Source: Paracoccaceae bacterium (GTDB lineage Bacteria; Pseudomonadota; Alphaproteobacteria; Rhodobacterales; Rhodobacteraceae). From it: a stretch of 39,042 bases of DNA. The translations under genes and the position numbers were made by a program. Below, in pieces: positions 7,601 through 35,583 of the stretch. The DNA lies in the NCBI GenBank assembly GCA_013373325.1, contig JABXIA010000039.1, positions 1 through 39,042 of the forward strand, in the 5' to 3' direction. Numbering within the stretch: the first letter of the stretch is position 1; each line of letters opens with the position of its first letter. The notes below the pieces were generated by a model that saw only the letters and a program-made list of their open reading frames with translations, was not told where the DNA came from and ran no database searches.

Positions 7601-7617
7601 CCATGAAGGATCAGGCG

Positions 7618-9066: not shown

Positions 9067-9075
9067 CTCCGGCCC

Positions 9076-9108
9076 GCCGGGGCTGGCTCCACCTGGCCCC
9101 GGCCTTTT
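9076..9108 (+). terminator. Terminator-like hairpin between phnY and the PbfA-like gene
   Basis: GCCGGGGC (9076-9083) pairs perfectly with GCCCCGGC (9096-9103) around a 12-base loop, followed by C and four T. It starts ten bases after the phnY stop. The short T-run suggests a partial terminator that would lower, not abolish, transcription into the next gene. Confidence 0.55.
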
Positions 9109-9145
9109 CATCCCTCCCTTTTGACCCCCTGCACGGAGGCGGCCC

Positions 9146-10926: not shown

Positions 10927-10942
10927 TACAGATCAGGGATTT
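10921..10942 (+). terminator. Attenuator-like hairpin overlapping the flp stop codon
   Basis: CCCTGAT (10921-10927) and ATCAGGG (10932-10938) form a perfect seven-base stem with loop ACAG, followed by ATTTT. The stop codon TGA of flp is inside the left arm. The weak T-run suggests partial termination or 3'-end protection of a short flp mRNA. Confidence 0.55.
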
Positions 10943-10943
10943 T

Positions 10944-10982
10944 GGCGGATGCGGGGCTTCGGGGGGAATGTCCCGCTCCGCC
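10944..10982 (+). terminator. Second large hairpin between flp and cpaB
   Basis: The left arm GGCGGATGCGGG (10944-10955) pairs with CCCGCTCCGCC (10972-10982), with a single bulged T, around a 16-base loop. No T-run follows, so it looks more like an RNA-processing or stability element than a classical terminator. It follows the stop-codon hairpin by five bases. Confidence 0.5.
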
Positions 10983-11109
10983 AGAGGACTGCCGCTGGCG
11001 ACTGGTGGCAGCAAGCATGGCAGGAAGCGGAAGCCTGCGGACAAATTCACCGACGTTTTGCCGGGACCGCCCTTCTGCTGCGCCAGCCAGCGATGAAAGG
11101 AAACCTGGC

Positions 11110-11925
11110 ATGAATATTTCATCACTTCTCAGCATGATTTCCGGATTGGCCCTGGCCGGCGGCTCTGCCTATGTGGCCAAGGATTACATCGACGGGCAGG
11201 CCGTGACCGGCGGCCCTGAAGGGCCTGCGCTGGTCGAAGTTGTGGTCGCCTCTCAGGATATCGCTTTCGGGACGGCATTGACTGCGCAATCCCTGACCAC
11301 CATTTCCTGGCCGGCCGAAGCGCGGCCCGCTGGCACCTTTACCAGTTTTGACACGCTGCTGCCGGATACCGGAAAACCGCCGCGCCGCGCCCGCCGCGCG
11401 ATTGCGCAGGGAGAGCTGATCCGGGCGTCCAAGGTCTCCAACTTCGGGGAAAAGGTGACCATTGTGCAGACGCTCAAGCCGGACCATCGCGCGATGGCCA
11501 TCAAGGTCAGCGCAGAAACCGCAGTGGGCGGTTTCGTGACCCCGGGCGACAGCGTTGATGTGCTGCTGACCCAGGGCCGCGGTGCCGGGCTGAAAACCGT
11601 GACCATCCTGCAGAACGTCCGGGTGATCGGTGTGGACCAGGATGCCAATCAGGAAACTGACCAGCCGGGCGTCGCCCGAACTGTCACGGTTGAGGTTACT
11701 CCGGACGAAGGCCAGCGCCTTGCTCTTGCGCAGCGCGCGGGCACGCTGAGCCTGACCTTGCGCAACCAGGAGGCGGCTGCCGAGGATGTTCCGCTGGAGT
11801 CGATCAGCCTGAATGACGTGCTGCGGAATGTGCAGGTGCAGCAGCCGGAACCGGCCGCAGAGCCTGCGCGCAGGACCGTTCTGATCCGCCGCGGCACCGA
11901 AGTGTCTGAAACTGAAATCCGCTGA
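11110..11925 (+). CDS. cpaB: CpaB/RcpC pilus assembly protein
   Basis: A 271-residue Tad component. It has an N-terminal membrane segment or signal anchor (about residues 5-22, SMISGLALAGGSAYVAKDYI), a SAF-like domain (about 38-105: EVVVASQDIAFGTALTAQSL and the IAQGELIRASKV segment), then an RcpC-like region with VTPGDSVDVLLTQ and VRVIGVDQDA. CpaB is periplasmic and normally works next to the outer-membrane secretin, which is absent from this cluster. The ATG at 11110 has AAGGA eight bases upstream; an upstream in-frame start at 10942 would begin in the hairpin and is unlikely. Confidence 0.92.
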   Translation: MNISSLLSMISGLALAGGSAYVAKDYIDGQAVTGGPEGPALVEVVVASQDIAFGTALTAQSLTTISWPAEARPAGTFTSFDTLLPDTGKPPRRARRAIAQGELIRASKVSNFGEKVTIVQTLKPDHRAMAIKVSAETAVGGFVTPGDSVDVLLTQGRGAGLKTVTILQNVRVIGVDQDANQETDQPGVARTVTVEVTPDEGQRLALAQRAGTLSLTLRNQEAAAEDVPLESISLNDVLRNVQVQQPEPAAEPARRTVLIRRGTEVSETEIR

Positions 11926-11955
11926 TTGAAACCGCACTGAGGGGCCTGCCGGACC

Positions 11956-13431
11956 ATGCGCCAGAACAACCGCATAAGACAGTTTGCACAGGATGAGCGC
12001 GGCACGATGCTGGTTATCTGGGGGCTGACCTTTGTGGTGCTTCTGGGGATCGCGGCGATGTCTTTCGACCTGGGCCGCACCGGCATCACCCGCAGCGAAC
12101 TGCAAGCCTACACCGACAATGTGGCGCTGGCGGCTGCAGGCGAGCTGGACGGCAAGGATGATGCTATCACCCGTGCCCGGGCCGCTGCCGCCAATCTGAT
12201 CAGTGACCGCAAGACCTTCGGCACCGGCGGCAGCCTGCTGAGCGGGGACAGCGATTACACGCTCACTTTCTATTCCGAACTGCCCGATGATGACACCGCG
12301 GTCCTGACTGCAGTCACCACCGATCCGGCAGAGGCGGCTTTTGTCCGAGCTGTTGCGACGCCCAGCACGGTACCCGCCACCTACGGTGCAGTATTTGCCG
12401 CGCTGACCGGCCGGTCCCGCCCGAATGAATTGGCGCGGGCCTCATCCGTGGCGGGCTTCACCCAATATGCTTGCGACATTACCCCGCTGATGTTCTGCGT
12501 CCCGCCGGGCTTCTCGGCTGACGCCAGCATCGGCGACATGATCCTGCTGCGTTCCGGCGGCAGCGGTTCCGCCTGGGGGCCGGGAGATTTCGGCTTTCTT
12601 GATCCGGCCAAGGTGCTGGTCGACGACGAAGGGCCGTGCGCGGGACTCAGCGGGGCACAGCTGGACGCCTGCCTGCTGGGGGCGGAAGGCAGCATCACCC
12701 AGTGCTTCAGCCAGCGCGGCGTGGATATCGAGCCGGGGCAGAAGGTCGGCATCCGCGATGCCATCTTCAACGTGCGCTTCGATATCTACAAGGCGATCAT
12801 GAACGGCAAGCGCAATGACTCCGACTACCCGCCTGCGCCGAATGTCATCAAGGGCATCGTGCCCAGCAGCGGCGGCAAAGGTAAAGGCGGCGGCAGCTGC
12901 ATCGGCAATAACGAGGACCCGTCGCCCGATACCGTTGGACTGCCGCGCGACGGATGTTTTGCCTCCGGCGGCTGCACACGATTTGGCGACGGCAACTGGT
13001 CGGCCGGACGGACGGATTATGTCAGCACTAACTATGGCGGGGTTGACCCGCACCCCGGTGCCACCACCCGCTATGAGTATTACCTGGAAGAGATTGATGC
13101 CGCTGGCGGTCCCGGAGGCACTGGCAGCATCCTGTCCGGTCTGGCCGAGACCGGCCGCCCGGTGTGTTCACCAAATCAAAGCTCCAACCCGCAGCGCCGG
13201 GTGGTGATTGCGGCGGGGATCGACTGCTACGCAAACCCGATCAACGGCGCAACTTCTGACGTGCCGGTGCAGGAATTCGTGAAGATCTTCCTGACTGAGC
13301 CGGTGGGGGACGACGGCGCCTCGCCGCCGACCCTGGATATCTGGGGCGAGGTTGTGGGCAGCGCAGGCGGCGGCGCCGGGGGCACTGGTGACACCGGTAT
13401 CTTCCGCGATGTTGTGCAGCTCTACAGGTGA
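11956..13431 (+). CDS. TadG-like pilus assembly protein
   Basis: A 491-residue protein with the N-terminal TadE/TadG-like membrane anchor: DERGTMLVIWGLTFVVLLGIAA near residues 14-35, then ITRSELQAYTDNVALAAAGEL, the segment typical of the Tad_N/TadG family. The rest is predicted to lie outside the membrane. It contains several cysteines and Gly-rich stretches (GSGGSGS-type near 195-205, SSGGKGKGGGS near 305, and GSAGGGAGGTGDTG near the C-terminus). I see no clear von Willebrand MIDAS motif, unlike some TadG proteins. The stop TGA is immediately followed by the tadE start region, so translation is likely coupled. Confidence 0.82.
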   Translation: MRQNNRIRQFAQDERGTMLVIWGLTFVVLLGIAAMSFDLGRTGITRSELQAYTDNVALAAAGELDGKDDAITRARAAAANLISDRKTFGTGGSLLSGDSDYTLTFYSELPDDDTAVLTAVTTDPAEAAFVRAVATPSTVPATYGAVFAALTGRSRPNELARASSVAGFTQYACDITPLMFCVPPGFSADASIGDMILLRSGGSGSAWGPGDFGFLDPAKVLVDDEGPCAGLSGAQLDACLLGAEGSITQCFSQRGVDIEPGQKVGIRDAIFNVRFDIYKAIMNGKRNDSDYPPAPNVIKGIVPSSGGKGKGGGSCIGNNEDPSPDTVGLPRDGCFASGGCTRFGDGNWSAGRTDYVSTNYGGVDPHPGATTRYEYYLEEIDAAGGPGGTGSILSGLAETGRPVCSPNQSSNPQRRVVIAAGIDCYANPINGATSDVPVQEFVKIFLTEPVGDDGASPPTLDIWGEVVGSAGGGAGGTGDTGIFRDVVQLYR

Positions 13432-13436
13432 CCGGG

Positions 13437-13940
13437 ATGGCTGGCAAAACACATACCGCAGTCTGTCGGGCTGCTTTCCGTAAAAGAGAAGAGGGCGCGG
13501 TGCTGGTGGAATTCGCACTGATGCTGCCGGTGATGCTGCTGGTTTTTGCGGTGATCATCGAGGGCGGGCGGATGATGTGGTCTTACCAGGCTGCAATCTC
13601 CGGCGTGAGGGATGCAGCCCGTTACCTGGCGCGGGTGGCGCCGCAGAACATCTGCTCCGCCGGCGGCACTGTGGACGCGCACCAGCCGCAACTGCTGGCG
13701 ATCGTGCGCGAAAGCATTTCGGGTGATGCGCTGTTTCCGGCCAGCCTTGCGGTGACCTCTGTCACCCCCGGCCTGACCTGCCAGCCAGGCAGTTACCGGA
13801 TATCGCCTGCGCCGGTTGTGACGGTGCGGGCCAGCCTGACCATGACCTTTCCCTTTGCGGGTGTCTTTGAACTGAACGGCGGCAGCCGTGCCACCATCAA
13901 TACGGTCATCACAGACCAGAGCCGGGTGTTCGGGACATGA
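13437..13940 (+). CDS. TadE-family pseudopilin
   Basis: About 167 residues. The N-terminal charged leader REEG is followed by AVLVEFALMLPVMLLVFAVI, the TadE-like motif with Glu5 as in prepilins, and then EGGRMMWSYQAAISGVRDAARYLAR. TadE and TadF are pseudopilins processed by the Tad prepilin peptidase. I chose the ATG at 13437 because AGGTG lies at the right distance; a GTG at 13428 overlapping the tadG stop is possible but lacks a ribosome site. The gene overlaps the next by four bases (ATGA). Confidence 0.88.
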   Translation: MAGKTHTAVCRAAFRKREEGAVLVEFALMLPVMLLVFAVIIEGGRMMWSYQAAISGVRDAARYLARVAPQNICSAGGTVDAHQPQLLAIVRESISGDALFPASLAVTSVTPGLTCQPGSYRISPAPVVTVRASLTMTFPFAGVFELNGGSRATINTVITDQSRVFGT

Positions 13941-14581
13941 AGGCGCTGTCAAAAGCATATGCAGCGCTGCGCCGGTTCCGCAGGGACCAGGAGGGTGCCG
14001 CGCTGGTGGAGCTGGGTGTTGCCATCCCGCTGTTCCTGCTGTTGTTCATGGGTATCATCGACTTCGGCCGCATGGCGTTTCACTATGTGGTGGCGGAACG
14101 GGCGATGAATGTGGCGGCGCGGGTGGCCGCGGTGCGGCCGCCGGCCTGCGCCGGGGTGCCGGAATTTCACCGGCGCGACCCGTCGGCCACCGGCACGCCG
14201 CCCGAATTCGGCACCTCCTGCCGGGCGGGGGCAGACATCTGCCTGAATGCGGGCACCGTGACCTGCGCGGGCAGTGCGGCCAATGCCACGGCAAATGAAA
14301 TCTGGGGCCTGGTGCGCGGCGCGATGCCGCCGGATGCCACCATCGCCGCGCTTTCGTTCAGCTACAGCTACGACGGCAGCCTCGGCTTTCTGGGCGGGCC
14401 TTACGTGCCCGTGGTCACGGTGGAGCTGCAAAACCAGACATTTCAATTCGTGTCGCCGCTGGGGCGGCTGGCGGCGCTGGCCGGTGCGGCTGGGGGGGGC
14501 GGCCTCGGCGCTGCGGTGCCGTTCCCGCCGATGAGCGTCTCGCTGCCGGGCGAGGACCTGGCACTGGGCCAGAGCGGCTGA
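13937..14581 (+). CDS. Second TadE/TadF-like pseudopilin
   Basis: A 214-residue protein. After a basic start (FRRDQEG) comes AALVELGVAIPLFLLLFMGIID, again a pseudopilin-like segment with Glu in position five, then FGRMAFHYVVAERAMNVAARVAAV. The C-terminal half is extracytoplasmic and contains four cysteines (residues about 72-115) that could pair. It starts in an ATGA overlap with tadE and lies 23 bp before cpaE. It may act as the TadF counterpart; sequence alone does not separate TadE from TadF here. Confidence 0.85.
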   Translation: MKALSKAYAALRRFRRDQEGAALVELGVAIPLFLLLFMGIIDFGRMAFHYVVAERAMNVAARVAAVRPPACAGVPEFHRRDPSATGTPPEFGTSCRAGADICLNAGTVTCAGSAANATANEIWGLVRGAMPPDATIAALSFSYSYDGSLGFLGGPYVPVVTVELQNQTFQFVSPLGRLAALAGAAGGGGLGAAVPFPPMSVSLPGEDLALGQSG

Positions 14582-14604
14582 AGCGATAGAGAAAGGAGAG
14601 GCCG

Positions 14605-15837
14605 ATGCAGGCTGATACACAATCCATCGTGGTCATTTCAAAGGATCCGGCGGTCTGTGCGCTGGTCGCCAGCGTGGCGCAGTTCCAGCCCGGAACAGGG
14701 GTGCAGAAATGCGCATCAGCGCTCAGTGAAATCAACGGCACCGCTCTGCAGCTGGCCATGGACAACGACCTGATCATCTTTCGCGCAGGGGCAGATCCGG
14801 CTGCTGAGGCTGCGGCCGTGAAAGAGATGCTGCGTCACACCAGCGGCGGTGCGCGAATCCTGGCACTGGCGGACACCAGCATGCCGTTTGCAGACCTGCG
14901 CCTGCTGACAGAGGCCGGGGTTCAGGATGTGCTGCCGGAAACCGCCTCTGCCGATGAGATGTCAGCCGCAATTCGTAAATGCCTGAAGGCAGAGGAGCCG
15001 CAACCGGTACCTGGCAGTACTGCCCGCGGCAGCCGTGAGGGAATGGTGGTCGCGGTCAGCCAGTCCTGCGGCGGTGCAGGGGCGACGACGCTGGCAGTGA
15101 ACCTTGCGGACTGCTTGACGCGGCGCCGCGGCCTGCGGCGGCAGGAGGCAGAGTTCAGGGTTGCCCTCTTGGACCTGGACCTGCAGTTCGGTTCCGTCGG
15201 CAGCTTTCTCGACCTGCCGCCGAACCGCTGTCTCTATGAGTTGGCAAGCGAGGGGTTTGTTCCCGACAATGTCTTTGCCGAACAATCCATGAGCGAGGCT
15301 GCCCCCGGACTGTGGGTGCTGGCAGCTCCGGCGGAAATTGCCCCGCTGCACGCGCTGAAACCGGAACAGGTGCAGGCGCTGATTGCGCATTTGCGCCAGC
15401 AGTTCGATTTCGTGGTGATCGGCCTGCCGCGGGCGCTGGCGGAATGGCTGACGCCGGTTCTGGAAGCCAGTGAGCGGCTGCTGATGGTGACCGGCAGCTC
15501 GGTGCCCGCGATCAGCCAGGCGCGGCGGTTGCTGGATTTCTACGCCGAGGCCAGCATGAGCCTGCAGACCGACATCGTGATCAGCCGCGAACGCAAACCG
15601 CTGATCACAGCGAGCCATCATAAAGAAGCCTCCAAGCTGCTGCAAAAGCCGTTCAAGTACTGGCTGCCCGACGATCCGTCGGCGGCATCTGCGGCGGCAG
15701 ACCGGGGGGTGCCGCTGTCAGCTGCGGCCGGGCGCTCCAGACTTGTCAAGGCGATCCGGCGGCTGTCACGCGACCTGATTGAAACAAGAAAAGCCCGCAC
15801 CGGCGCGGCACAGCCTCAGCAGGGAAAGGCGGTTTGA
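14605..15837 (+). CDS. cpaE: CpaE/TadZ-like pilus localisation protein with degenerate P-loop
   Basis: A 410-residue protein with an N-terminal receiver-like domain (about 5-125, without a convincing phospho-acceptor Asp) and a C-terminal ParA/MinD-like domain (from about 148). CpaE/TadZ positions the Tad machine at the pole or membrane. The nucleotide loop reads SQSCGGAGATTL. The deviant Walker Lys of KGGxGKT is Cys here, and the second Lys is Ala, so both lysines are missing. Switch-like segments LLDLDLQFGSVGSFLDLPP and LPRALAEWLTPVLEAS remain. GSSVPAISQARRLLDFY is typical of CpaE. AAGGAG precedes the ATG. The next gene starts one base after the stop. Confidence 0.88.
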   Translation: MQADTQSIVVISKDPAVCALVASVAQFQPGTGVQKCASALSEINGTALQLAMDNDLIIFRAGADPAAEAAAVKEMLRHTSGGARILALADTSMPFADLRLLTEAGVQDVLPETASADEMSAAIRKCLKAEEPQPVPGSTARGSREGMVVAVSQSCGGAGATTLAVNLADCLTRRRGLRRQEAEFRVALLDLDLQFGSVGSFLDLPPNRCLYELASEGFVPDNVFAEQSMSEAAPGLWVLAAPAEIAPLHALKPEQVQALIAHLRQQFDFVVIGLPRALAEWLTPVLEASERLLMVTGSSVPAISQARRLLDFYAEASMSLQTDIVISRERKPLITASHHKEASKLLQKPFKYWLPDDPSAASAAADRGVPLSAAAGRSRLVKAIRRLSRDLIETRKARTGAAQPQQGKAV

Positions 15838-15838
15838 G

Positions 15839-17229
<1,391 letters not shown>

Positions 17230-17230
<1 letters not shown>

Positions 17231-18222
17231 TGCTGAAGGAACTGTTGAACGAAGTGCACAGCTGGAACGGCCAGCTGGGAGGCTACGCGGTCTATTGCGG
17301 CATTGCAGTCGGTTTGCTGCTGCTGATGTCCGGGCTGCGGCAAATGCTGGGCCGCAAGGGCCGCTCGGCGGCCTCCCGCAGCCGCCGGATGCGGATGATT
17401 GCACAAGGGCGCAGTGGCACTGAGCGTCTCGCCATCCTCAAGCCGCCGCAGCAGCGGACCGGATGGCGGCGCATTCCGGTGGCAGGGGACTTGCCGCAGA
17501 TCCTGCGCCAGGCGGATGTGCCGCTGAGCCCAGGCCTGTTCTGGCTTGGCTGCATTGCGCTGACCGCCCTCATTTCGGTTGTCGCAGCCCGGTATGCGGG
17601 TCTGCCTCAGGGGTTAGTGATCGGGGTTCTTGGCGGCTTTGGCGTGCCGTTTGCGCTGCTAATCAGCCTGCAGCGCAAGAAGAAGGACAAATTGATGCAC
17701 CAGTTGCCGGATGCGCTGGAAATGCTGGCACGCGGCCTCAAGGTTGGCCACCCGCTGAACAATTCGATCGGCATCGCGGCTCGCGAGATGCCGGATCCGG
17801 CAGGCACCGAGCTGGGCATTATCTACGATCAAGTAACCTATGGCGACGATCTGCCGGATGCGGTGCAGGAATTTGCGGACCGGACCGGGCTGGAAGACGC
17901 CCAGTACCTGGCTGCCAGCATCAGCATTCAGCACGGCACTGGCAGCGACCTGTCGGTGATGCTGGAAACCCTGGCGCGGGTCATCCGCAGCCGCATTGTT
18001 CTGCGCCGCAAGGTGCACGCCTTGGCCTCCGAGGGGCGGCTGACCGCATGGATGCTGTCAGCCTTGCCGCTGGTGATCTTTGCCGCCGTCTCGGTGCTGA
18101 CGCCGGACTACTACGCGGGTGTGGCGGAAGATCCGCTGTTCCGGCCGATGATGGCCGGGATCGTCCTGCTGACCGTGCTGAACGCGCTGATGCTGCGCAA
18201 ACTTGTCAATTTCAGGATCTGA
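17230..18222 (+). CDS. tadB: TadB inner-membrane platform protein
   Basis: A 330-residue protein of the GspF/T2SF family. It has an N-terminal membrane helix (about 17-37), two helices in the middle (about 100-145: LFWLGCIALTALISVVAARY and the VIGVLGGFGVPFALLISL segment), a cytoplasmic T2SF domain with LPDALEMLARGLKVGHPLNNSI, and two helices near the C-terminus (about 270-325). TadB and TadC form the platform on which the CpaF ATPase acts. It overlaps cpaF by one base and ends 15 bp before tadC. Confidence 0.94.
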
Positions 18223-18237
18223 CCGGGGAGGCCTGCC

Positions 18238-19239
18238 ATGGAGGATTATGTCACAGGGGTATTGACTGGAACCGGGCTGGCACCCGGCGCGTTGGCCGCC
18301 GCCGCGGTGGCCGCAGCTGTGCTTTTGATCTACTTTGGTGCGGCCGCCAGCCTGGCCCGGAAATCGCCCGCTGCAGCACGGCTGTCATCGCTGGGTGAAA
18401 CCCGCCGCCGGCAAACCCGGGACCTGGCGCTGCTGAAGGCGCCTGCCGACCAGCCTGGCGGGCTGATGAAAGCCTTTGTGCCTGCCAGCATGACGGAACG
18501 CTCGGAACTGGAGAACAAGCTGTCTCAGGCCGGGTTTTCGCAGGCCGGGGCGCTGCGTACTTTCACTTTGATCCGGGTTCTGCTCGGGCTGGCACTGCCG
18601 GGTGCGCTGCTGCTGGTCATCGCCGCCGCCAAGACACCGGGTTTGCTGCCGCCCAATCCTGTCACCGCGCAAGTGGCGGGCTGGACCAACATGCAGGTGT
18701 TCCAGGCGCTGAGCGGGCTGGTGGGGGCGGGCTTCTTCGGCCCGATCTATGTGCTGAACGCCCGCGCCGCTGCCCGCCGCCGCCGGATTGAGGAGGCATT
18801 TCCCAACGCGCTGGACCTGATACGCATTTCGGTTGATTCCGGACTGGGCTTCGACGCCGCCATGACCCGGGTGGGTAACGAACTGGCGCAGGTTTCGCCG
18901 GATCTGGCCTTTGAGCTGCTCAGCGTGCAGCGGCAGATTCAGGCCGGCCGGGCGCGGCAGGATGCGCTGCTTGATATGTCCAGCCGCACCGGCGTAGAGA
19001 CGGTCCGGTCGTTTGCAAATGTGGCCCTGCAGTCAATGCAGTTCGGCACCAGCATGGCATCGGCGCTTGCAACGTATTCCGATGATCTGCGCAATCAGCG
19101 GGAAATGCGCGCGCAGGAAATGGCCAGCAAACTGCCGGTCAAGATGTCGGCGGTTCTGGCCTCTCTGATGCTGCCTGCGCTGATCATGATCACCATCGGC
19201 CCGGTGGTCATCCGTTACATCCGTTTTATTGCGAACTGA
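18238..19239 (+). CDS. tadC: TadC inner-membrane platform protein
   Basis: A 333-residue T2SF-family partner of TadB. Membrane helices are visible near 20-40, 110-130 and 155-175 and at the C-terminus (PVKMSAVLASLMLPALIMITIGPVV). The central T2SF segment is FPNALDLIRISVDSGLGFDAAM, with Asp and Gly positions shared with TadB. GGGGAGG precedes the ATG. A gap of 251 bp follows, so this is the likely end of the assembly operon and the luxR-type gene downstream has its own promoter. Confidence 0.94.
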   Translation: MEDYVTGVLTGTGLAPGALAAAAVAAAVLLIYFGAAASLARKSPAAARLSSLGETRRRQTRDLALLKAPADQPGGLMKAFVPASMTERSELENKLSQAGFSQAGALRTFTLIRVLLGLALPGALLLVIAAAKTPGLLPPNPVTAQVAGWTNMQVFQALSGLVGAGFFGPIYVLNARAAARRRRIEEAFPNALDLIRISVDSGLGFDAAMTRVGNELAQVSPDLAFELLSVQRQIQAGRARQDALLDMSSRTGVETVRSFANVALQSMQFGTSMASALATYSDDLRNQREMRAQEMASKLPVKMSAVLASLMLPALIMITIGPVVIRYIRFIAN

Positions 19240-27507: not shown

Positions 27508-27528
27508 ATAGTTGACATTGTCAATTAT
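27508..27528. promoter_or_regulatory. Predicted MarR operator upstream of marR-rdhA
   Basis: TTGACA-T-TGTCAA (27512-27524) is a perfect inverted repeat. With one mismatched pair it extends by ATA/TAT on each side (27508-27528), giving a 21-bp dyad typical of MarR-family operators. It ends one base before the marR ATG and overlaps a possible -10 (TATATA, 27505-27510). Bound regulator would block the start region of the marR-rdhA unit. Confidence 0.7.
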
Positions 27529-27529
27529 C

Positions 27530-27982
27530 ATGAGTCAGACACGCTTCCACCTGCATCACTCCCTCGGCTACCAGATCACCATGCTGGCGCGTGTGATCGA
27601 ACGCCGTTTTGAACAGCGCATCACCGAGCATGGGCTGACGCGCGTGACGTGGTGCGTGCTGCTGGCTGCAGGGGAGGAGGGGCTGGCAACGCCTTCCGAG
27701 ATTGCTGATTTCATCGGTATCGACCGCACTGCCACCTCCCGCGCCCTGCGGCAGATGGAGGCGCGCGGACTGATCACGCGCTGCAGCAGCGAGGGCGACG
27801 GGCGTTCGATCCGGGTAGCGCTGACCGCTGCAGGACAGGCGGCGTTGCAGGCGGTGCTGCCCATCGCGCAGGAGAACGCCGCGCATTTCGAGGCCAAGCT
27901 GAGCGGCGCAGAACTGTCCGCGCTGCGCCAGTCCGCCGCCCGGCTCCTGCAGGACGAGCCGCGCATCGTTGCCAAGCTGTAA
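27530..27982 (+). CDS. MarR-family regulator of the reductive dehalogenase unit
   Basis: A 150-residue MarR protein: helical dimerisation ends (1-30 and 115-150) around a winged HTH (about 53-100: ATPSEIADFIGIDRTATSRALRQMEARGLI, then the wing CSSEGDGRSIRVALT). MarR regulators usually release DNA on binding phenolic or aromatic ligands, which would suit control of a dehalogenase acting on halogenated aromatics. It lies 16 bp before the dehalogenase gene on the same strand. No purine-rich ribosome site precedes the ATG; instead the operator dyad is there, so translation may be weak or leaderless. A TTG at 27512 is an alternative start, also without a ribosome site. Confidence 0.9.
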   Translation: MSQTRFHLHHSLGYQITMLARVIERRFEQRITEHGLTRVTWCVLLAAGEEGLATPSEIADFIGIDRTATSRALRQMEARGLITRCSSEGDGRSIRVALTAAGQAALQAVLPIAQENAAHFEAKLSGAELSALRQSAARLLQDEPRIVAKL

Positions 27983-27998: not shown

Positions 27999-30900
27999 AT
28001 GGGCAAACTGTTTTCCTACCGCAACCGGCCTGTGCATCTGGGGCCGTACCCGATGGAGATCCTTGCACGGCAAGCGGCTCCTGAAGGGCTGGACGCTCTG
28101 CCGCCGCTGGCGCAGGTCAGCTTCCGCCGCCCCGATGCGCCGCTTTCCATCGTCAACGGGATGCGCGACTATCAGGCGATGCTGGACGCCACCCGCGAGG
28201 GGCTGGTGAAAAAGGAACGCGCCGAAATCCCTGTCGACCCGCAGGAACGCACGGATCATCTGAAGGCGTTCGGCTATTTCTGCGACGCCTCTCTGGCGGG
28301 CGCCTGCGCGGTGCCCTCTGGCGCCTGGCGGGACGCGCCGCTGGTAAACCCGGATGTGGCGGCGCTGGCGGAAACCCTGCGCACGAAACAGATCAAGACC
28401 TTTGCCTCCGGCATCGACGTTGTGATGGCGAACCTGCGTGAGGCGATGCGGGCCCCGCCCGCGGACTGCCGCCACCACACGCACGCTCTGGTCTATGTTT
28501 ACGAGTTCCCCCGCGACCCCGAGGCTGGGGAAGACGGCGCCGATTGGCTGGCGGATGCTCAGGACCAGCGCGCTTGCCTGCGGGCGGCGGAAACCGTGGT
28601 GACGCTCGCCAACTACATCCGCCTTCTGGGCTGGGACGCCCGCGCGCATACCGGTGCGGCCAGTGACGTGCATCTTGGCAAGCTGGCGGTGCAGGCCGGG
28701 CTTGCCACTTACGAACACGGCGTGCTGACAAACCCGTTCCTCGGCAGCCGTTTCGGCATCGCTGCCGTGACCACAACGCTGGAACTGGCCGCCGATCTGC
28801 CGCTGGTGCCGGGGCAGGCGCCGGGGCTCAGATACCGGCTGGGCCTTGGCGCCCACGCCAAGAGCGCTGCCACCCGCGACCCGTACGCCAAGCGGCGCTT
28901 CATGGACGGCCCGCACCCGTTCGAGACCCTGAAGCGGGTGGCAGACCCCACAACCTATATTGACGAGGTGAATGTCGCGCGCGTCCCGAAACGTGCTGAC
29001 ATGTTCGCACGCTCCCTGTTCGGCGACCTCGGCAAAGGCCCGCAGGAGGCGGCGAAGAACGGTAACTACGTCCGCAAATCCTCTTCGGCCTTTGCCTTTC
29101 GCTCCTCGCTCGCGGCCTTGGTGCTGCTGCAGGACGGCGAGCCCGCGCCAAATATTGATCCCAGCGCCGCCGATGCCGCCCGCAACGCTGCCAATATCAA
29201 GGCCGCGGCCTATTTCCTTGGCTGCGACGCGGTGGGTATCTCACGCTGCCCGGACTGGGCCTACTACTCCCATGACGCGGCAGGCGAACCCTTGGCGCCC
29301 TACCACGAAAACGCCATCAGCATCATAATCGACCAGGGCCATGAAACAATGGAAGGCGCCTCCGGCGATGACTGGATCGCCTGCGCCCAGTCGATGCGTG
29401 CCTACTTGCGGTTCTCGCTTCTGGGCGGCGTAATCGCGCAGCAGATCCGCAACCTCGGCTATACCGCCCGGGTGCATTCGGTAATGGACGGCGAGGTTCT
29501 GCAGCCGCCGCTGTTGCTGCTCTCCGGCCTCGGCGAGGTCTCCCGCATCGGCGAGGTAATCCTGAACCCCTTCCTCGGCCCCCGCCTGAAATCCGGTGCC
29601 GTGACCACCAACCTGCCGATGGCCCACGACAAACCTGTCGACTTCGGCCTGCAGCGCTTCTGCGAGGCCTGCAACAAATGCGCCCGCGAATGCCCCTCTG
29701 GCGCAATCACCGCCGGGCCGAAGCTGATGTTCAACGGCTATGAGATCTGGAAGTCCGACAGCCAGAAATGCACCACCTACCGCGTCCCCGTGCCCGGCGG
29801 CGCCATGTGCGGCCGCTGCATGAAGACATGCCCCTGGAACCTGGAGGGTCTGTTTGCAGAGGAGCCGTTCCGCTGGGCCGCGATGAATGTGCCGGGCAGT
29901 GCGCCATTGCTCGCAAAACTCGACGACGCGCTGGGCCATGGCGAGGTCAACACCGCTAAGAAATGGTGGTGGGATCTGGAGATGGTGGAAGAGGGGCCCT
30001 ACGCGCCCTCGCCGCATCCAGTGAATGCCCGCAAGCTGTCCAAAGACTTAGATCTGAAGTTTGAGGACCAGACACTGGCGGTCTACCCCGCACCGCTGGC
30101 GCCGCCGCCCTATGCCTGGCCCGCGCCGATGGACCGCGAGGCCGGGATTGCTGCCTATCAGGCGATGATCCCGGCAGCGGAGCACAAGCGCCGCCGCGCG
30201 GCAGGTCTGCCGCCGGAACATGTCTATACCGCTGATCAGGGTGCAGCGCCTGTCATGCGGGTGCGCCTGTCCAAGGTCGAGCACATGGCGGACGCTGTTA
30301 CCAAATATGAGTTCTGCTTGCCGGACGGTGCGCCGCTCCCGCAGGCGACCGCAGGCGCCCACATCGACGTGGTCGTCGCGCCGGAATTTTTCCGCCAGTA
30401 CTCGCTGTCGGGCGATCCGGCCGACCGGTCGAAATACCAGATTGCGGTGCTGCGCGAAGACGGAGGCCGCGGCGGGTCCAGGCTCATGCACCGGATATTT
30501 GATGAGGGGCGGCTGGTCTTTATTTCCAAGCCGGTCAACCATTTCCCGCTGGCAGAGGATGCCGCCAAATCCTACCTGATGGGCGGCGGCATCGGGGTGA
30601 CGCCGATGATCGCCATGGCTCACCGTTTGCACGCTCTGGGCCGGGACTTCGAATTCCGCTATTCATGTTCGAAAAAGGCAAGCGCAGGGTTCCTTGAGGA
30701 TCTATCTGAGGTGCCTTGGGTCGATAAAGTGCATCTGCATTTCTCCGATCAAGGCACCAGGGCGGACCTTGGGGAGGTTCTGAAGTACCGCCCTGGAAGC
30801 CATGTCTACACCTGCGGGCCGGAAGTCTACATGCAGGCCGTACTGGAGGCGGCAAAAGCCAATGGCTTCCCGGAAGAGGCCCGCCACATGGAGTATTTCT

Positions 30901-31196
30901 CGGTTCCCGAACAGCCCGAATACGAGAACCATCCCTTTACCCTGAAGCTGGCAAAATCGGGCCGCGAGATTCTGGTTCCAGCGGAAAAGACCGCAACCGA
31001 GGCACTGGCCGAAAACGGCATCCACGTGGATGTGAAATGCTCCGACGGGATCTGCGGGGTCTGCAAATGCGGGCTTATTTCCGGCGAGGCGGAGCACCGC
31101 GACTTTGTACTGTCGAACAAGCAGCGCGAGGGCGCCATTATCCTCTGCCAGTCCCGCGCACAGGCACCGGACGGCGTGCTGGAGATTGATCTATAG
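27999..31196 (+). CDS. Self-sufficient reductive dehalogenase fused to NAD(P)H/flavin/2Fe-2S reductase
   Basis: A 1065-residue fusion. Residues about 1-700 are a cobalamin-dependent reductive dehalogenase. Two ferredoxin-like cluster motifs are visible, CEACNKCARECP near 554-565 and a distant Cys near 591 with CGRCMKTCP near 604-612. Residues about 735-970 are an FMN/NAD reductase module (RQYSLSGDP flavin site, GGGIGVTPM and CGPEVYM nucleotide sites). Residues about 980-1065 carry a plant-type 2Fe-2S domain, CSDGICGVCKC with the last Cys in ILCQSRA. This matches the layout of the aerobic, respiration-independent enzymes BhbA (Comamonas) and NpRdhA (Nitratireductor), which remove halogen from brominated phenolics. 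There is no Tat signal and no rdhB anchor gene, so it should be cytoplasmic. AAAGGGG precedes the ATG. The substrate is unknown. Confidence 0.9.
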   Translation: MGKLFSYRNRPVHLGPYPMEILARQAAPEGLDALPPLAQVSFRRPDAPLSIVNGMRDYQAMLDATREGLVKKERAEIPVDPQERTDHLKAFGYFCDASLAGACAVPSGAWRDAPLVNPDVAALAETLRTKQIKTFASGIDVVMANLREAMRAPPADCRHHTHALVYVYEFPRDPEAGEDGADWLADAQDQRACLRAAETVVTLANYIRLLGWDARAHTGAASDVHLGKLAVQAGLATYEHGVLTNPFLGSRFGIAAVTTTLELAADLPLVPGQAPGLRYRLGLGAHAKSAATRDPYAKRRFMDGPHPFETLKRVADPTTYIDEVNVARVPKRADMFARSLFGDLGKGPQEAAKNGNYVRKSSSAFAFRSSLAALVLLQDGEPAPNIDPSAADAARNAANIKAAAYFLGCDAVGISRCPDWAYYSHDAAGEPLAPYHENAISIIIDQGHETMEGASGDDWIACAQSMRAYLRFSLLGGVIAQQIRNLGYTARVHSVMDGEVLQPPLLLLSGLGEVSRIGEVILNPFLGPRLKSGAVTTNLPMAHDKPVDFGLQRFCEACNKCARECPSGAITAGPKLMFNGYEIWKSDSQKCTTYRVPVPGGAMCGRCMKTCPWNLEGLFAEEPFRWAAMNVPGSAPLLAKLDDALGHGEVNTAKKWWWDLEMVEEGPYAPSPHPVNARKLSKDLDLKFEDQTLAVYPAPLAPPPYAWPAPMDREAGIAAYQAMIPAAEHKRRRAAGLPPEHVYTADQGAAPVMRVRLSKVEHMADAVTKYEFCLPDGAPLPQATAGAHIDVVVAPEFFRQYSLSGDPADRSKYQIAVLREDGGRGGSRLMHRIFDEGRLVFISKPVNHFPLAEDAAKSYLMGGGIGVTPMIAMAHRLHALGRDFEFRYSCSKKASAGFLEDLSEVPWVDKVHLHFSDQGTRADLGEVLKYRPGSHVYTCGPEVYMQAVLEAAKANGFPEEARHMEYFSVPEQPEYENHPFTLKLAKSGREILVPAEKTATEALAENGIHVDVKCSDGICGVCKCGLISGEAEHRDFVLSNKQREGAIILCQSRAQAPDGVLEIDL

Positions 31197-31287: not shown

Positions 31288-31680
31288 TCAGAACACCTGC
31301 CGCTCACCCAGCAGATAGCGGGCGACGTCCACGTAATCAAACATCAGCGACACCGCGATCACCGCGCAGACCAGCAGGATAATACGCTGCGGCCAAACAG
31401 GCATATCCACCCGCATCCGCTGCCGCCACAGCCAGAAGACCAGAGGCGTCCACAGGATCACATGGGGCAGCCCCAGCAGCCGCACATATCCCAGCTTTCC
31501 ATACAGCCAGTAGACTCCAACGCCCGCCAGCACGCTCGCGGCCACAGTGACCAGCCCCGCCAGGCGGCCGGGCTGCCAGAACAGCAGCGCCAGCGGCAGC
31601 ACAAAGGCGCCCAGAAACAGAATGTTGACCCAGATCTGCACCCACAAAGGCTGGGTTGCGATTGCCTCATCCAGTGTCAT
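31288..31680 (-). CDS. Small four-helix membrane protein, unknown function
   Basis: A 130-residue integral membrane protein with four hydrophobic helices (about 15-36, 40-60, 68-88 and 98-118) and short charged ends. I do not recognise a family. It starts after a GGGAGG ribosome site 53 bp downstream of the sulfatase gene on the same strand, so the two are probably cotranscribed. It points towards the dehalogenase gene and is on the opposite strand from it, so it is not an RdhB anchor. It could assist uptake or export linked to the sulfatase, but nothing in the sequence shows this. Confidence 0.8.
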   Translation of the reverse strand: MTLDEAIATQPLWVQIWVNILFLGAFVLPLALLFWQPGRLAGLVTVAASVLAGVGVYWLYGKLGYVRLLGLPHVILWTPLVFWLWRQRMRVDMPVWPQRIILLVCAVIAVSLMFDYVDVARYLLGERQVF

Positions 31681-31733: not shown

Positions 31734-33200
31734 CTACAGTGCCGGGCCTTCGCGCATCCTGTCCTGCTCGTCCGGCGTTGGTGTGTGGTTGAACACATAG
31801 GCCGTGCGGCAGGCCTCCTCGCCGCCCAGCTCCGCGATCCTGCGGCGCTGATCGGCAAAGGCGCGGGCATTCACCTCCTCCGGGTCGCAGATTGCCAGGA
31901 GCCGCCGCGCACCCTCAGCCAATGCCGCCTGGATCTTCGGATCATTGACCCCGTCCATCGCCCGGTTTGCCTGCTCATTCGGGTCCGCCTCCAGGTCAAA
32001 CAGCTGCGGTTGCATCCCGGCATAGTGGACGTACTTCCACTTGCCCCAGCGCACCATGAAGGCGCCGGTTTTTGACCCGCCATCGTGGTATTCGCTGAAG
32101 CCGGTGCGGGCCTCGTCATAAGGCGCATTTGCAACCGCGCGAAGCGACACGCCTGGCAATTCCGAGGCTTCCCCCGCGCCGCAGACCTCACGCGCGGTGG
32201 CGGCGATGTCAGTCAGGCTGGTGCAGGTTGCCACCTGATGCCCTGCCGGAATACCCGGCCCGGCGGCGATCATCGGAACCCCGGCCGATTGCTCATACAT
32301 CACCTGCTTGGTCCAGAATCCCTGATCGCCCATCATGTCGCCATGATCCGAGACGTAAAGGATCACGGTGTTCTCCAGCTGGCCGCTGTCCTCCAGCGCC
32401 TTGATTACCCGGCCCGCGCAGTCATCCATGAAGGACGTCAGCCCGTAATAGGCCGCTTTGGCTTCACGCATCTTCTGTTCGTCGAAATAGTCATCGTAGT
32501 TGAAAAACTCCGCGATGTTGCGCAGCTCCTCATGATCCGGCAGCCCCTCGCCATAGCCCACAGGCAAGTCCATCCCGGCGGGGTCGTACAGGCTGTACCA
32601 CTCGTCGGGGCAGGTCAGCGGGTAGTGCGGGCTGACCAGGGACACGAACGCCGCCCAGGGCTGCTGCTGCCGTTTGGGATCCAACAGCCAAGCCTCTGCT
32701 GCGCCGGTGATGGCGAGATCGTAATCGGTATAGGTGCTGGACCCGGTGCCGACGTCGCCAGCCAGTTCGGCAGCCGAGCCGTAAGGCGGCGGGTTCTCCC
32801 GCAGCAAGCCTATCGCCCAGCCCACGCCGCCCACGACATGCATCGGCAGGATTTCCTCGGTAAACCCGTTGTCATCCCCGGCGGAACGGAAATGCAGCTT
32901 GCCGATCGACACCACCTCGCGGCCCGCGTCCCGCAGGGCGTGCATCCAGCTGCGCGGGCTGCCGCTGTAGGGGGTGGCACTGTCCCAGTGGCCGGTTTTG
33001 TGCACCCAATCGCCGGTGGCCAGCGCCGCCCGGGTCGGCACGCACATGGGCGACGGGGTATAGGCCGCGGTGAACATCGTGCCGCGCGCCGCCAGCGCGT
33101 CCAGGTTTGGCGTTTTCACAATCGGATGTCCCGCGCAGCCCATCGCATCCTTGCGGTGCTCGTCGGAAATAATGACCAGAAAATTCGGCTGCTCGCTCAT
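31734..33200 (-). CDS. Type I sulfatase (alkaline phosphatase superfamily)
   Basis: A 488-residue sulfatase. It has the formylglycine signature CVPTR with Cys53 (CxPxR), the N-terminal metal Asp in IISDEH, KLHFRS with a catalytic Lys/His pair, and the SDHGDMMGDQGFW metal site near residue 300. There is no signal peptide, so it acts in the cytoplasm and needs a formylglycine-generating enzyme encoded elsewhere. The layout resembles choline-sulfatase-type enzymes of the S1 class (the SDHGD region especially), but the substrate is not evident. GGAGG precedes the ATG at 33200; a longer frame to 33311 lacks a ribosome site. It is divergent from a LysR regulator and followed by a small membrane protein. 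Confidence 0.92.
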   Translation of the reverse strand: MSEQPNFLVIISDEHRKDAMGCAGHPIVKTPNLDALAARGTMFTAAYTPSPMCVPTRAALATGDWVHKTGHWDSATPYSGSPRSWMHALRDAGREVVSIGKLHFRSAGDDNGFTEEILPMHVVGGVGWAIGLLRENPPPYGSAAELAGDVGTGSSTYTDYDLAITGAAEAWLLDPKRQQQPWAAFVSLVSPHYPLTCPDEWYSLYDPAGMDLPVGYGEGLPDHEELRNIAEFFNYDDYFDEQKMREAKAAYYGLTSFMDDCAGRVIKALEDSGQLENTVILYVSDHGDMMGDQGFWTKQVMYEQSAGVPMIAAGPGIPAGHQVATCTSLTDIAATAREVCGAGEASELPGVSLRAVANAPYDEARTGFSEYHDGGSKTGAFMVRWGKWKYVHYAGMQPQLFDLEADPNEQANRAMDGVNDPKIQAALAEGARRLLAICDPEEVNARAFADQRRRIAELGGEEACRTAYVFNHTPTPDEQDRMREGPAL

Positions 33201-33326
33201 CGGGTCCTCCCATCTGGTCGCCTGAACCGTAATGGACAGGCGGGCAGGCCGCAGTGTTCTGGAAATCCGCGCCGCAATCCAATAGATAAATATTACCTGG
33301 AGACATAACAAAATTTATGGATTGCT

Positions 33327-34172
33327 ATGGCGACACCTCTGAAGTGGCTGCACAACTTCGAAGCTGTGGCCCGGCTCGGCAATATGACACTGGCCGCGCA
33401 GAAGGTCGGGCTGACGCAGGCCGCGCTCAGCCAGCAGATGCAAGCGCTGGAAACCCACCTGAAACTGCAGCTGTTCACCCGTGAGCCGCGCGGGATGTCG
33501 CTCACCGCTTCCGGTGCGCAGCTTTACAGCGACGTCTCTCCGGGGCTGGAGCAGATTTCCAACGCGCTGAAACGCTACCGGCAGCCGCAGGGCAGCCGTC
33601 TGCGTATTCTCTGCAACGCCAGTTTTGCCCTGCGCTGGCTGATCCCCAATCTGCCGGGGTTTCATGCCCGTCATCCCGGGATCCAAGTGGAAACCCGTAC
33701 TGCCCTCTGGCGGCCGGAGCGGCACGGGTACGACCCGGATGCGGAGATCTTCCTTGGCGGCCCGGTCCAGCCGGCGCCTGCCAGGGCACTCGTGAAATGC
33801 AGCCTTATCGCGGTTCGTGCACCGGGCTGCGCCGAAGAAGGGCCGCTTCCCGTAATCCGTATCAGCGGCCAGGAAAGTCTGTTCGAGGAGTGGCTGAAGT
33901 CACCGCGTTTCGCGGCCTGCACGATCCGCCAACCTCTTGAAGTCGACAGCGTGCACGCCGCAGTCAGCCTGGCCGCAGATGGTCTCGGCTGGACCCTGTG
34001 CCCTTCCTTTCTTGTCCGCGCAGAGCTGCAGACCGGACGGCTTCTCGCCGCTGATGCCGATGTGGCAGCACCCAAACGGGCCTATTGGCTGCAGCTGAAG
34101 GACCGGCCGAGCGCAGCCGCAGAGGTTTTTCGCGATTGGATCACAGCTGAATTGCCCGCCGGATTGGATTGA
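33327..34172 (+). CDS. LysR-family regulator (GcvA-like), divergent from the sulfatase
   Basis: A 281-residue LysR protein with N-terminal HTH (LHNFEAVARLGNMTLAAQKVGLTQAALSQQMQALE split over residues 8-42) and an effector domain from about 88 (SRLRILCNASFALRWLIPNLPGF, a pattern seen in GcvA-like regulators). The gap of 126 bp to the divergent sulfatase gene is AT-rich at its right end and should hold both promoters. By position it is likely to control the sulfatase and membrane protein. The ATG at 33327 has only a weak purine tract before it. Confidence 0.9.
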   Translation: MATPLKWLHNFEAVARLGNMTLAAQKVGLTQAALSQQMQALETHLKLQLFTREPRGMSLTASGAQLYSDVSPGLEQISNALKRYRQPQGSRLRILCNASFALRWLIPNLPGFHARHPGIQVETRTALWRPERHGYDPDAEIFLGGPVQPAPARALVKCSLIAVRAPGCAEEGPLPVIRISGQESLFEEWLKSPRFAACTIRQPLEVDSVHAAVSLAADGLGWTLCPSFLVRAELQTGRLLAADADVAAPKRAYWLQLKDRPSAAAEVFRDWITAELPAGLD

Positions 34173-34368: not shown

Positions 34369-35583
34369 ATGGGTTCGCGGATGATGGATAACAGGCTGCC
34401 GGTAACTGTGCTCTCGGGTTTCCTCGGAGCGGGCAAGACCACGCTTTTGAATCACGTTCTGAACAACCGCGCTGGCCGCCGGGTGGCGGTAATCGTCAAC
34501 GACATGAGCGAGGTGAACATCGACGCGGACCTGGTGCGCGGCGGAACGGAACTGTCACGCCAGGACGAGAAGCTGGTGGAAATGACCAATGGCTGCATCT
34601 GCTGCACGCTGCGCGACGACCTGCTGCAGGAGGTGCGCCGCCTCGCGGCTGAAGGGCGCTTTGACTATTTGCTGATCGAAAGCACAGGCATTGCTGAGCC
34701 GCTGCCGGTGGCTGCGACCTTCGATTTCCGGGATGAGCAGGGCGCCAGCCTTTCGGACGTGGCCCGGCTGGACACCATGGTCACGGTGGTCGACGCAGTA
34801 AACCTGCTGCGCGACTTCGCCAGCCATGACTTCCTCAGTGACCGCGGTGAAAGCCTGGGCGCGGAGGACGACCGCACCCTGGTCAATCTGCTGACCGACC
34901 AGATCGAGTTCTCCGATGTCATTATCCTGAACAAGGTATCGGACGCGGGACCGGACCAGACTTCCGCGGCAATGGCGGTCATCAAAGCGCTGAACCCGGA
35001 TGCCGAGGTGATCCATGCCGATTACTCCGAAGTTGACGGAGACCGCATCTTCGACACTGGCCGTTTCGATTTTGACAAGGCCCATGAGCATCCCCTTTGG
35101 GCCAAAGAGCTCTATGGCTTCGACCACCATGTGCCGGAAACCGAGGAATACGGGATTTCCTCTTTCGTCTACCGGGCCAAGCGCCCCTTTGACCCCGCCA
35201 AGATCCACGCAGTTCTGAATGGCGATCTGCCCGGGGTGATCCGGGCCAAAGGGCATTTCTGGCTGGCCACCCGTCCCGAATGGGCTGCGGAGTTCTCGCT
35301 GGCCGGGGCGATTTCTTCCGTCCGCCCGTTGGGTCTCTGGTGGGCGGCGGTGCCAACGGAGCGCTGGCCGTCTCATCCTGAGGCCCGTCAGGAATTCCTG
35401 CAGAACTGGGACGAAACCTGGGGCGACCGGCGGCAGGAGCTGGTGTTCATCGGCGCAGGTCTGGACAAGGAGGCGATCACCGCGCGGCTGGACGCCTGCC
35501 TTATGCCGGAAACGGCCAACGGCTTCGATCCGGCCTGGTCCGTGCTGGAAGACCCCTTCCCAAGCTGGCGCCGCAATGGCTGA
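34369..35583 (+). CDS. CobW/COG0523-family zinc-linked GTPase
   Basis: A 404-residue G3E GTPase. Walker A is [15 protein letters not shown] (18-32), the metal-binding CxCC motif is GCICCTL (Cys76, 78, 79), [11 protein letters not shown] forms the switch region and NKVSD is the base-recognition motif. The C-terminal CobW domain is present (about 255-360, with GHFWLATRP). COG0523 proteins under Zur control act as zinc chaperones for target enzymes during zinc limitation; the operator here supports that class over the cobalamin or nitrile-hydratase ones. No ribosome site lies before the ATG at 34369, which falls where transcription from TATGAT would begin, so the mRNA may be leaderless; an ATG at 34381 or 34384 is possible. 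Confidence 0.92.

Follow-up and report, generated by a model that had tools for sequence, protein, structure and literature searches.

The stretch analysed here, called the window (39,042 nucleotides, contig JABXIA010000039.1 of the Paracoccaceae bacterium assembly GCA_013373325.1), carries an rdhA fusion gene whose product, judging from its sequence, is soluble and belongs with the catabolic reductive dehalogenases of the known BhbA/JtRdhA type, to which it adds one more member. Taken as a whole, the locus is very probably explained by a halophenol dehalogenase of this type placed under a MarR switch. The genus of the window was taken as Leisingera from its closest relatives. The source assembly comprises 4.5 Mb in 409 contigs and is 90.5% complete.

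The rdhA gene is a single unbroken frame that opens with the ATG at 27999 and closes with the stop at 31196; its parts are the following:

27999..31196, + strand: rdhA fusion gene, predicted self-sufficient catabolic reductive dehalogenase of 1065 amino acids (frame, homology, residues)
28005..28313, + strand: N-terminal stretch, residues 3-105, aligning with the NpRdhA N-terminus (first phmmer segment against 4RAS, 30 bits)
28314..28463, + strand: insert of about 50 residues, 106-155 (alignment: not in NpRdhA, present in six other fusion proteins)
28464..30203, + strand: RdhA body, residues 156-735, with six active-site residues (phmmer and alignment)
29661..29831, + strand: two [4Fe-4S] cysteine motifs, C555-C565 and C591-C611 (eight of eight cysteines in 84 of 84 sequences)
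30255..31184, + strand: phthalate-dioxygenase-reductase-like module, residues 753-1062, with flavin, nucleotide and plant-type 2Fe-2S parts (2PIA, Fer2)

The ATG at 27999 is preceded by AAAGGGG and the corresponding M1 is almost invariant (38 aligned rows); a start at the alternative TTG at 27969, in the same frame, would lengthen the product by 10 residues. The NCBIfam model TIGR02486 'reductive dehalogenase' scores 200 bits on the product against a cut-off of 160. In phmmer searches, residues 3-105 and 156-735 of the product aligned with NpRdhA (4RAS, E 1.9e-159) and residues 753-1062 with phthalate dioxygenase reductase (2PIA, E 1e-57). Pfam Fer2 was found at 39.5 bits (cut-off 21), together with a Pfam 4Fe-4S domain. 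The product also contains RQYS, which we take to be a flavin signature, and GGGIGVTP and CGPEVYM, presumably nucleotide signatures. An earlier note on this DNA had described one polypeptide joining a dehalogenase to a reductase, and the 1065-residue frame with its 4RAS and 2PIA matches agrees with that description; the two [4Fe-4S], flavin, nucleotide and plant-type 2Fe-2S motifs that it listed were all located in the sequence. Relatives were represented by the best 80 of 307 genome-contig matches, which biases locus counts towards close relatives. In 79 of these, the match starts at residue 1 or 3 and reaches at least residue 1014; that of the remaining one (L085) spans 117 to 1065. Since 79 of the 80 align over nearly the whole length, the fusion layout is not due to chance. 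The insert specific to the RdhA domain of fusion enzymes folds over the active site in the description of JtRdhA (PMC10463259). The N-terminal half of NpRdhA aligns with the product, so that a vestigial N-terminal duplicate of the cobalamin-binding domain is predicted for the product by homology.

Six active-site residues of the dehalogenases are retained. Window residues F336, S465, M466, Y469, K531 and R595 correspond to NpRdhA F291, S422, M423, Y426, K488 and R552, which are named as conserved in JtRdhA (PMC10463259). They were counted in 84 sequences aligned to NpRdhA with MAFFT, namely the window protein, proteins from 78 of the 80 loci and those of five plasmid records; L045 and L072 were left outside this count and the tree owing to crude gene picking, L072 being present in other alignments. 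All six equivalents are identical in 84 of 84 sequences, as are the [4Fe-4S] cysteines C555/558/561/565 and C591/604/607/611, while each of the 2Fe-2S cysteines C1014/1019/1022/1050 occurs in 82 or 83 of the 84 sequences, with gaps in the others. Thus the alignment with NpRdhA and BhbA that had been proposed as a check finds the catalytic Tyr, Lys and Arg equivalents (Y469, K531, R595) kept throughout. An AlphaFold model built from 38 aligned sequences reached a mean predicted local distance difference test score (pLDDT) of 71.7, with residues 550-625 below 50, so that the [4Fe-4S] region is weak. Foldseek placed NpRdhA chains on top (best E 7e-52, template modelling score 0.76 by target length, root-mean-square deviation 7.0, 758 columns) and, on this moderate model, 2PIA at rank 16. 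The predicted fold is given little weight beyond its agreement with the sequence.

Directly upstream of rdhA lie a regulator gene and a short palindrome, neither of which had been noticed in the earlier note:

27530..27982, + strand: marR-family regulator gene (Pfam MarR_2, 58.4 bits against a cut-off of 27)
27512..27524, no strand assigned: palindrome TTGACATTGTCAA, predicted MarR operator (conservation in marR loci)

The end of marR and the ATG of rdhA are separated by 16 base pairs (bp) on the same strand. The start of marR was taken as the ATG at 27530; the listed TTG at 27512 falls inside the palindrome, whose pattern TTGACA-N-TGTCAA stands directly before this ATG. In a sample of 21 genomes of the genus (E 1e-30), marR was found in all 17 rdhA-carrying genomes and in none of the four without rdhA, and the marR and rdhA matches are 20 to 42 bp apart in each of the 17. 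A wider survey of neighbours covered 85 loci (the 80 kept loci and the five plasmid records) with flanks of up to 8 kb, shorter at contig ends, so that absence of a neighbour means absence from that DNA. There, marR was found in 42 loci, always within 600 bp upstream of rdhA, on the same strand in 41 and on the opposite strand in one. Its presence is clustered by descent, since the label changes nine times on the tree, whereas shuffled labels need 28.5 changes on average.

The palindrome was sought in 220 bp round the marR start (133 bp in one contig-end locus) in the window and the 42 loci. It is perfect in 18 of these 43 marR loci and present with at most one mismatch in 28; the pattern was taken from the window, which matches by construction, and the Leisingera loci are close kin. 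Outside Leisingera, 18 of 33 marR loci have it within one mismatch. In the perfect palindromes, the central position is taken by any of the four bases. Random 220-bp windows of marR loci, which possibly include the site, reach this level in 0.9% of cases, and none of the 43 loci without marR has it with one mismatch or fewer in the 300 bp before rdhA. On both strands of the source assembly the exact palindrome occurs at one place and the reversed control at none. The palindrome is thus predicted to be a MarR operator, and the expression of rdhA is probably repressed by the upstream MarR acting on it. marR genes beside Dehalococcoides rdh genes act as negative regulators (PMC6299228). For the aerobic fusion enzymes, no marR gene or operator appeared in open-access titles and abstract openings among the matches listed, and with respect to these the marR-palindrome pair goes beyond published accounts.

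Several observations weigh against this explanation. The Pfam Dehalogenase model PF13486 gave no match to the rdhA product even at E 10, and the flavin-domain model PF00970 scored 11.9 bits, below its cut-off of 21.1. The AlphaFold model, being moderate, was unusable for active-site geometry. On the regulatory side, marR was not found in 43 of the 85 loci, the BhbA locus included, and the enzyme therefore does not need it; moreover, in 15 of the 43 marR loci no sequence comes within one mismatch of the palindrome. The only promoter-like site returned by a sigma-70 scan is on the - strand, with 0.8 expected by chance and none on the + strand, and the promoter and terminator scan was set aside as signal because it stays at chance level (one against 0.8; terminators five against 3.3, all on the - strand). 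CobN is represented in the source genome only by two fragments at the end of a contig, neither of which reaches the cut-off, so that B12 synthesis is at most putative. Finally, NpRdhA F290, F310, P311, A419 and N452, named as pocket residues, with A419 lining the second-bromine pocket (PMC7565698), correspond to M335, Y357, V358, C462 and V495 in the window. Over the 84 sequences, the A419 position is Cys (64), Val (16), Ser (3) or Thr (1). Because these five pocket residues are changed, the exact substrate may differ.

These pocket changes could also mean that the RdhA fold has been turned to another reductive, non-dehalogenating reaction, as in QueG with epoxyqueuosine. Family searches covered 25 window proteins (24 of 33 picked frames and the marR product), and none of the 24 other than the rdhA product indicates halogen chemistry; furthermore, a short RdhA encoded in the same genome, described below, could debrominate instead. 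Against this, the six dehalogenase active-site residues are invariant, BhbA and JtRdhA are proven debrominases with the same layout, and the QueG model TIGR00276 gives 27.5 on the product against a cut-off of 200, with a true QueG (425 bits) on another contig. We therefore regard such another reaction as very unlikely. A respiratory, energy-conserving reductive dehalogenase would have the same fold and cofactor motifs, but this alternative is the least credible of those considered here, close to negligible. Indeed, the N-terminus (MGKLFSYRNRP) has no twin arginine, as judged by eye and without a signal-peptide program, and the protein has its own reductase module. rdhA is flanked by marR upstream and by an antisense gene for a 130-residue membrane-like protein downstream; no same-strand anchor gene was seen adjoining it, no RdhB model having been searched.

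For the halophenol dehalogenase with a MarR switch, we infer the cofactors, electron route, substrate, product fate, repression and inducer as follows. NAD(P)H would reduce the flavin of the C-terminal module, from which single electrons would pass through the 2Fe-2S cluster and the two [4Fe-4S] clusters to base-off cobalamin. The hydroxyl of an ortho-bromo- or iodophenol would be bound at S465/K531/R595 with the halogen above the cobalt, and Y469 would donate the proton. The likely product would be a debrominated phenol of the 4-hydroxybenzoate or hydroxyphenylacetate type, which might be used as carbon via PobA and protocatechuate dioxygenase or just be disposed of. Repression by MarR at TTGACA-N-TGTCAA would probably be lifted by a halophenol or a related compound.

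The fate of the product separates two variants of this explanation. The enzyme might detoxify algal or bacterial bromo- and iodophenols without growth on them, MarR being a stress switch; we consider this variant quite plausible, if somewhat short of an even chance. MarR regulators often respond to toxic phenols. No ring-cleavage family was found among the searched window proteins, and half of the loci pair the gene with marR, unlike the catabolic clusters of BhbA and of Nitratireductor OM-1. However, 4-hydroxybenzoate 3-monooxygenase PobA and the beta subunit of protocatechuate 3,4-dioxygenase, PcaH, are encoded elsewhere in the source genome, both over curated cut-offs, and 4-hydroxybenzoate from debromination could therefore be used. 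The earlier statement that the window holds no ring-degradation genes thus stands for the 25 searched proteins and is incomplete for the genome. Growth of E. coli W on 3-bromo-4-hydroxyphenylacetate by means of JtRdhA (PMC10463259) also speaks against mere detoxification.

The genome encodes a second, short RdhA (L003, G000:C253, 1474-2661, - strand) of 395 amino acids without a reductase, which scores 175 bits with TIGR02486, over the cut-off. It is 82.9% identical over 385 residues to a protein of Roseobacter sp. MED193 (L093) that matches Ros_A3X954, an enzyme converting 2,6-dibromophenol to 2-bromophenol and losing its activity in oxygen (PMC13101508). The cysteine motifs of Ros_A3X954 are placed at 283-294 and 337-345 (PMC13101508), and the 395-residue reading from MED193 (L093) has exactly these motifs. 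Ros_A3X954 had been considered as the counterpart of the fusion (MED193 locus L078) and was rejected as such, the published motifs fitting the separate 395-residue protein; the MED193 genome has both a fusion and a short RdhA. Similar hits were obtained in 15 genomes of the 21 in the genus (E 1e-20), and a LysR-type frame, identified by eye, adjoins the gene in the source genome.

In the genus, the fusion is present in 17 of 21 genomes, as one frame in 16 and as two frames broken near residue 910 in one (G016); three of the other genomes have none and one (G021) has an 84-residue remnant. This remnant (G021:C1:3325969-3326220) is 76% identical over 84 residues, the rest of rdhA and marR not being found there. 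The copy of Leisingera sp. JC1 (L014, near 10784) has a frame break near residue 910 like that of G016 (G016:C136:35536), which reflects either recent loss or assembly error. In a family sample of 394 genomes, 149 match the fusion at E 1e-150 or better. That the frame is unbroken in 16 of the 21 genomes of the genus and that 149 of 394 family genomes have matches suggests that rdhA is kept by selection. Among the kept loci, identity is 88-95% for the nine of Leisingera (L006-L014) and 67-75% for the others, mostly labelled Rhodobacterales. Phaeobacter, Pseudophaeobacter and Ruegeria are close kin of Leisingera. In a quick tree, the proteins of Leisingera group in a single clade, separate from those of these three genera, which hints at horizontal transfer of the fusion gene. 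Homologues of BhbA are widespread in the Roseobacter clade (PMC13101508, citing Chen et al. 2013), and an RdhA of Ruegeria pomeroyi is found in the tree legend of PMC10463259. For Leisingera together with reductive dehalogenase, the open-access literature gave nothing but a forest-soil survey among the matches listed. Isolates of Leisingera (L007) and Ruegeria (L083) from bobtail-squid glands bear the fusion; a squid-gland Pseudoalteromonas makes bromoalterochromides (PMC7333567), which are a possible natural substrate near these carriers.

Downstream of rdhA, the following gene deserves mention:

31734..33311, - strand: sulfatase gene (Pfam Sulfatase, 139.6 bits against a cut-off of 25; CVPTR, presumably the sulfatase motif, by eye)

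It lies 0.5 kb from rdhA on the opposite strand. Twelve of the 21 genus genomes have it (E 1e-100), each of them one of the 17 rdhA carriers, and in 11 it stands within 0.6 kb of rdhA (G006 and G019 with partial matches); in G014 it has an internal stop and lies 25 kb from rdhA. It is missing from five rdhA-carrying genomes and was not seen in the flanks of the 71 loci outside Leisingera or of the five plasmid records. Within the genus, and there alone, the sulfatase may be associated with the rdhA locus. Among solved structures, choline-sulfatases are nearest to it, yet it scores 257 bits against the choline-sulfatase cut-off of 433. A link between bromophenols and sulfatases was not met in the open-access literature among the matches listed, and a link of this sulfatase to sulfated bromophenols is only a possibility. 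It could be imagined that the genus locus is a substrate-switched island for sulfated algal bromophenols, in which the sulfatase would bare the hydroxyl, RdhA would use NAD(P)H for debromination and a MarR of its own would control the island from perhaps its sole genomic site; we consider this unlikely.

Between rdhA and the sulfatase gene, 31288-31680 (- strand) encodes the 130-residue membrane-like protein (by eye), which has no Pfam family and was found in seven of the 85 loci, all Leisingera. Divergent from the sulfatase gene is a LysR regulator (33327-34172, + strand), like GcvA and choline-sulfate regulators and below their cut-offs; of the 85 loci, it recurs in two from Leisingera and in five from Ruegeria, the latter at 27-38% identity. 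Neighbours confined to Leisingera in this survey are an ornithine/lysine/arginine decarboxylase (five loci), the sulfatase (seven), a ZigA GTPase (seven) and a transketolase-like protein (five). Three candidate associations were rejected: the CobW-type neighbour at 34369-35580 as a B12 link, being a ZigA zinc-chaperone GTPase (601.9 against 600; CobW 152 against 332); the nitroreductase neighbour as BluB (20 bits against 150); and the conserved PleD-like, HAD-like and MttB-like neighbours (by eye) in other genera, of which the window has no members and which are read as local synteny. Farther away, genes for phosphonoacetaldehyde dehydrogenase and PbfA ((R)-1-hydroxy-2-aminoethylphosphonate ammonia-lyase) are adjacent at 7603-10492, both over cut-off, and would serve 2-aminoethylphosphonate use, and a tad/Flp pilus cluster occupies 10942-19239 (CpaB over cut-off; CpaE- and TadA-like proteins below theirs).

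Bromophenols are abundant in the sea (PMC13101508). The occurrence of the fusion in more than one third of the sampled family genomes (149/394) suggests that debromination is an ordinary trait there and not a rarity of polluted sites. Moreover, the marR gene and the palindrome may provide a handle on the natural inducer, and hence on the natural substrate. The genome also combines two unlike RdhAs, one with the layout of the oxygen-tolerant JtRdhA and one near an oxygen-sensitive enzyme (PMC13101508).

Comparison with known systems places the window enzyme among the fused catabolic ones. The MarR-type rdh regulators of Dehalococcoides, Rdh2R for example, are by published description encoded beside rdh genes and exert negative control (PMC6299228), as is predicted for the regulator here; the enzymes concerned are anaerobic and respiratory, in contrast to the fused catabolic type found here. 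Ros_A3X954 of Roseobacter sp. MED193 is likewise a debrominase from the Roseobacter group, but has 395 amino acids, no reductase and sensitivity to oxygen (PMC13101508). The RdhA part of the window protein is 43% identical over 675 residues to NpRdhA of Nitratireductor pacificus (4RAS, 6ZXU) and shares its six active-site residues, whereas NpRdhA has neither the reductase module nor the 50-residue insert and differs at the five other pocket residues. It belongs to a clade without a reductase domain that needs separate redox partners (PMC10463259). Of the earlier proposal that the protein has the layout of BhbA and NpRdhA, the NpRdhA half thus falls and the BhbA half holds. BhbA (Comamonas sp. 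7D-2, plasmid pBHB, L094), whose gene was found on pBHB by tblastn with 100% of the query covered, has the same layout throughout, with 50% identity over 1059 aligned residues. Its locus differs, with protocatechuate dioxygenase genes, porins and insertion sequence (IS) elements adjoining and marR not found, as does its origin, a bromoxynil pathway from contaminated soil.

The nearest characterised type is that of JtRdhA (WP_104007082) from the marine Jhaorihella thermophila. By its published description, JtRdhA is like the window protein in domain order, in the six active-site residues and in the RdhA insert; the 80 loci include no Jhaorihella. No regulator is mentioned for it in the parts of PMC10463259 consulted, whereas marR lies beside the window rdhA. 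JtRdhA couples NADPH use 1:1 to turnover even in air and acts on ortho-bromo- and iodophenols, the tested chlorinated analogues merely inhibiting it (PMC10463259). With this precedent and the catalytic residues kept, the earlier suggestions of an apparently non-respiratory enzyme in a marine lineage and of a bromophenol-like substrate, which remains the best guess, are both upheld; the broader idea of removing halogen from marine halo-organics in general was too wide, and would narrow to the bromo- and iodo-compounds on which JtRdhA acts.

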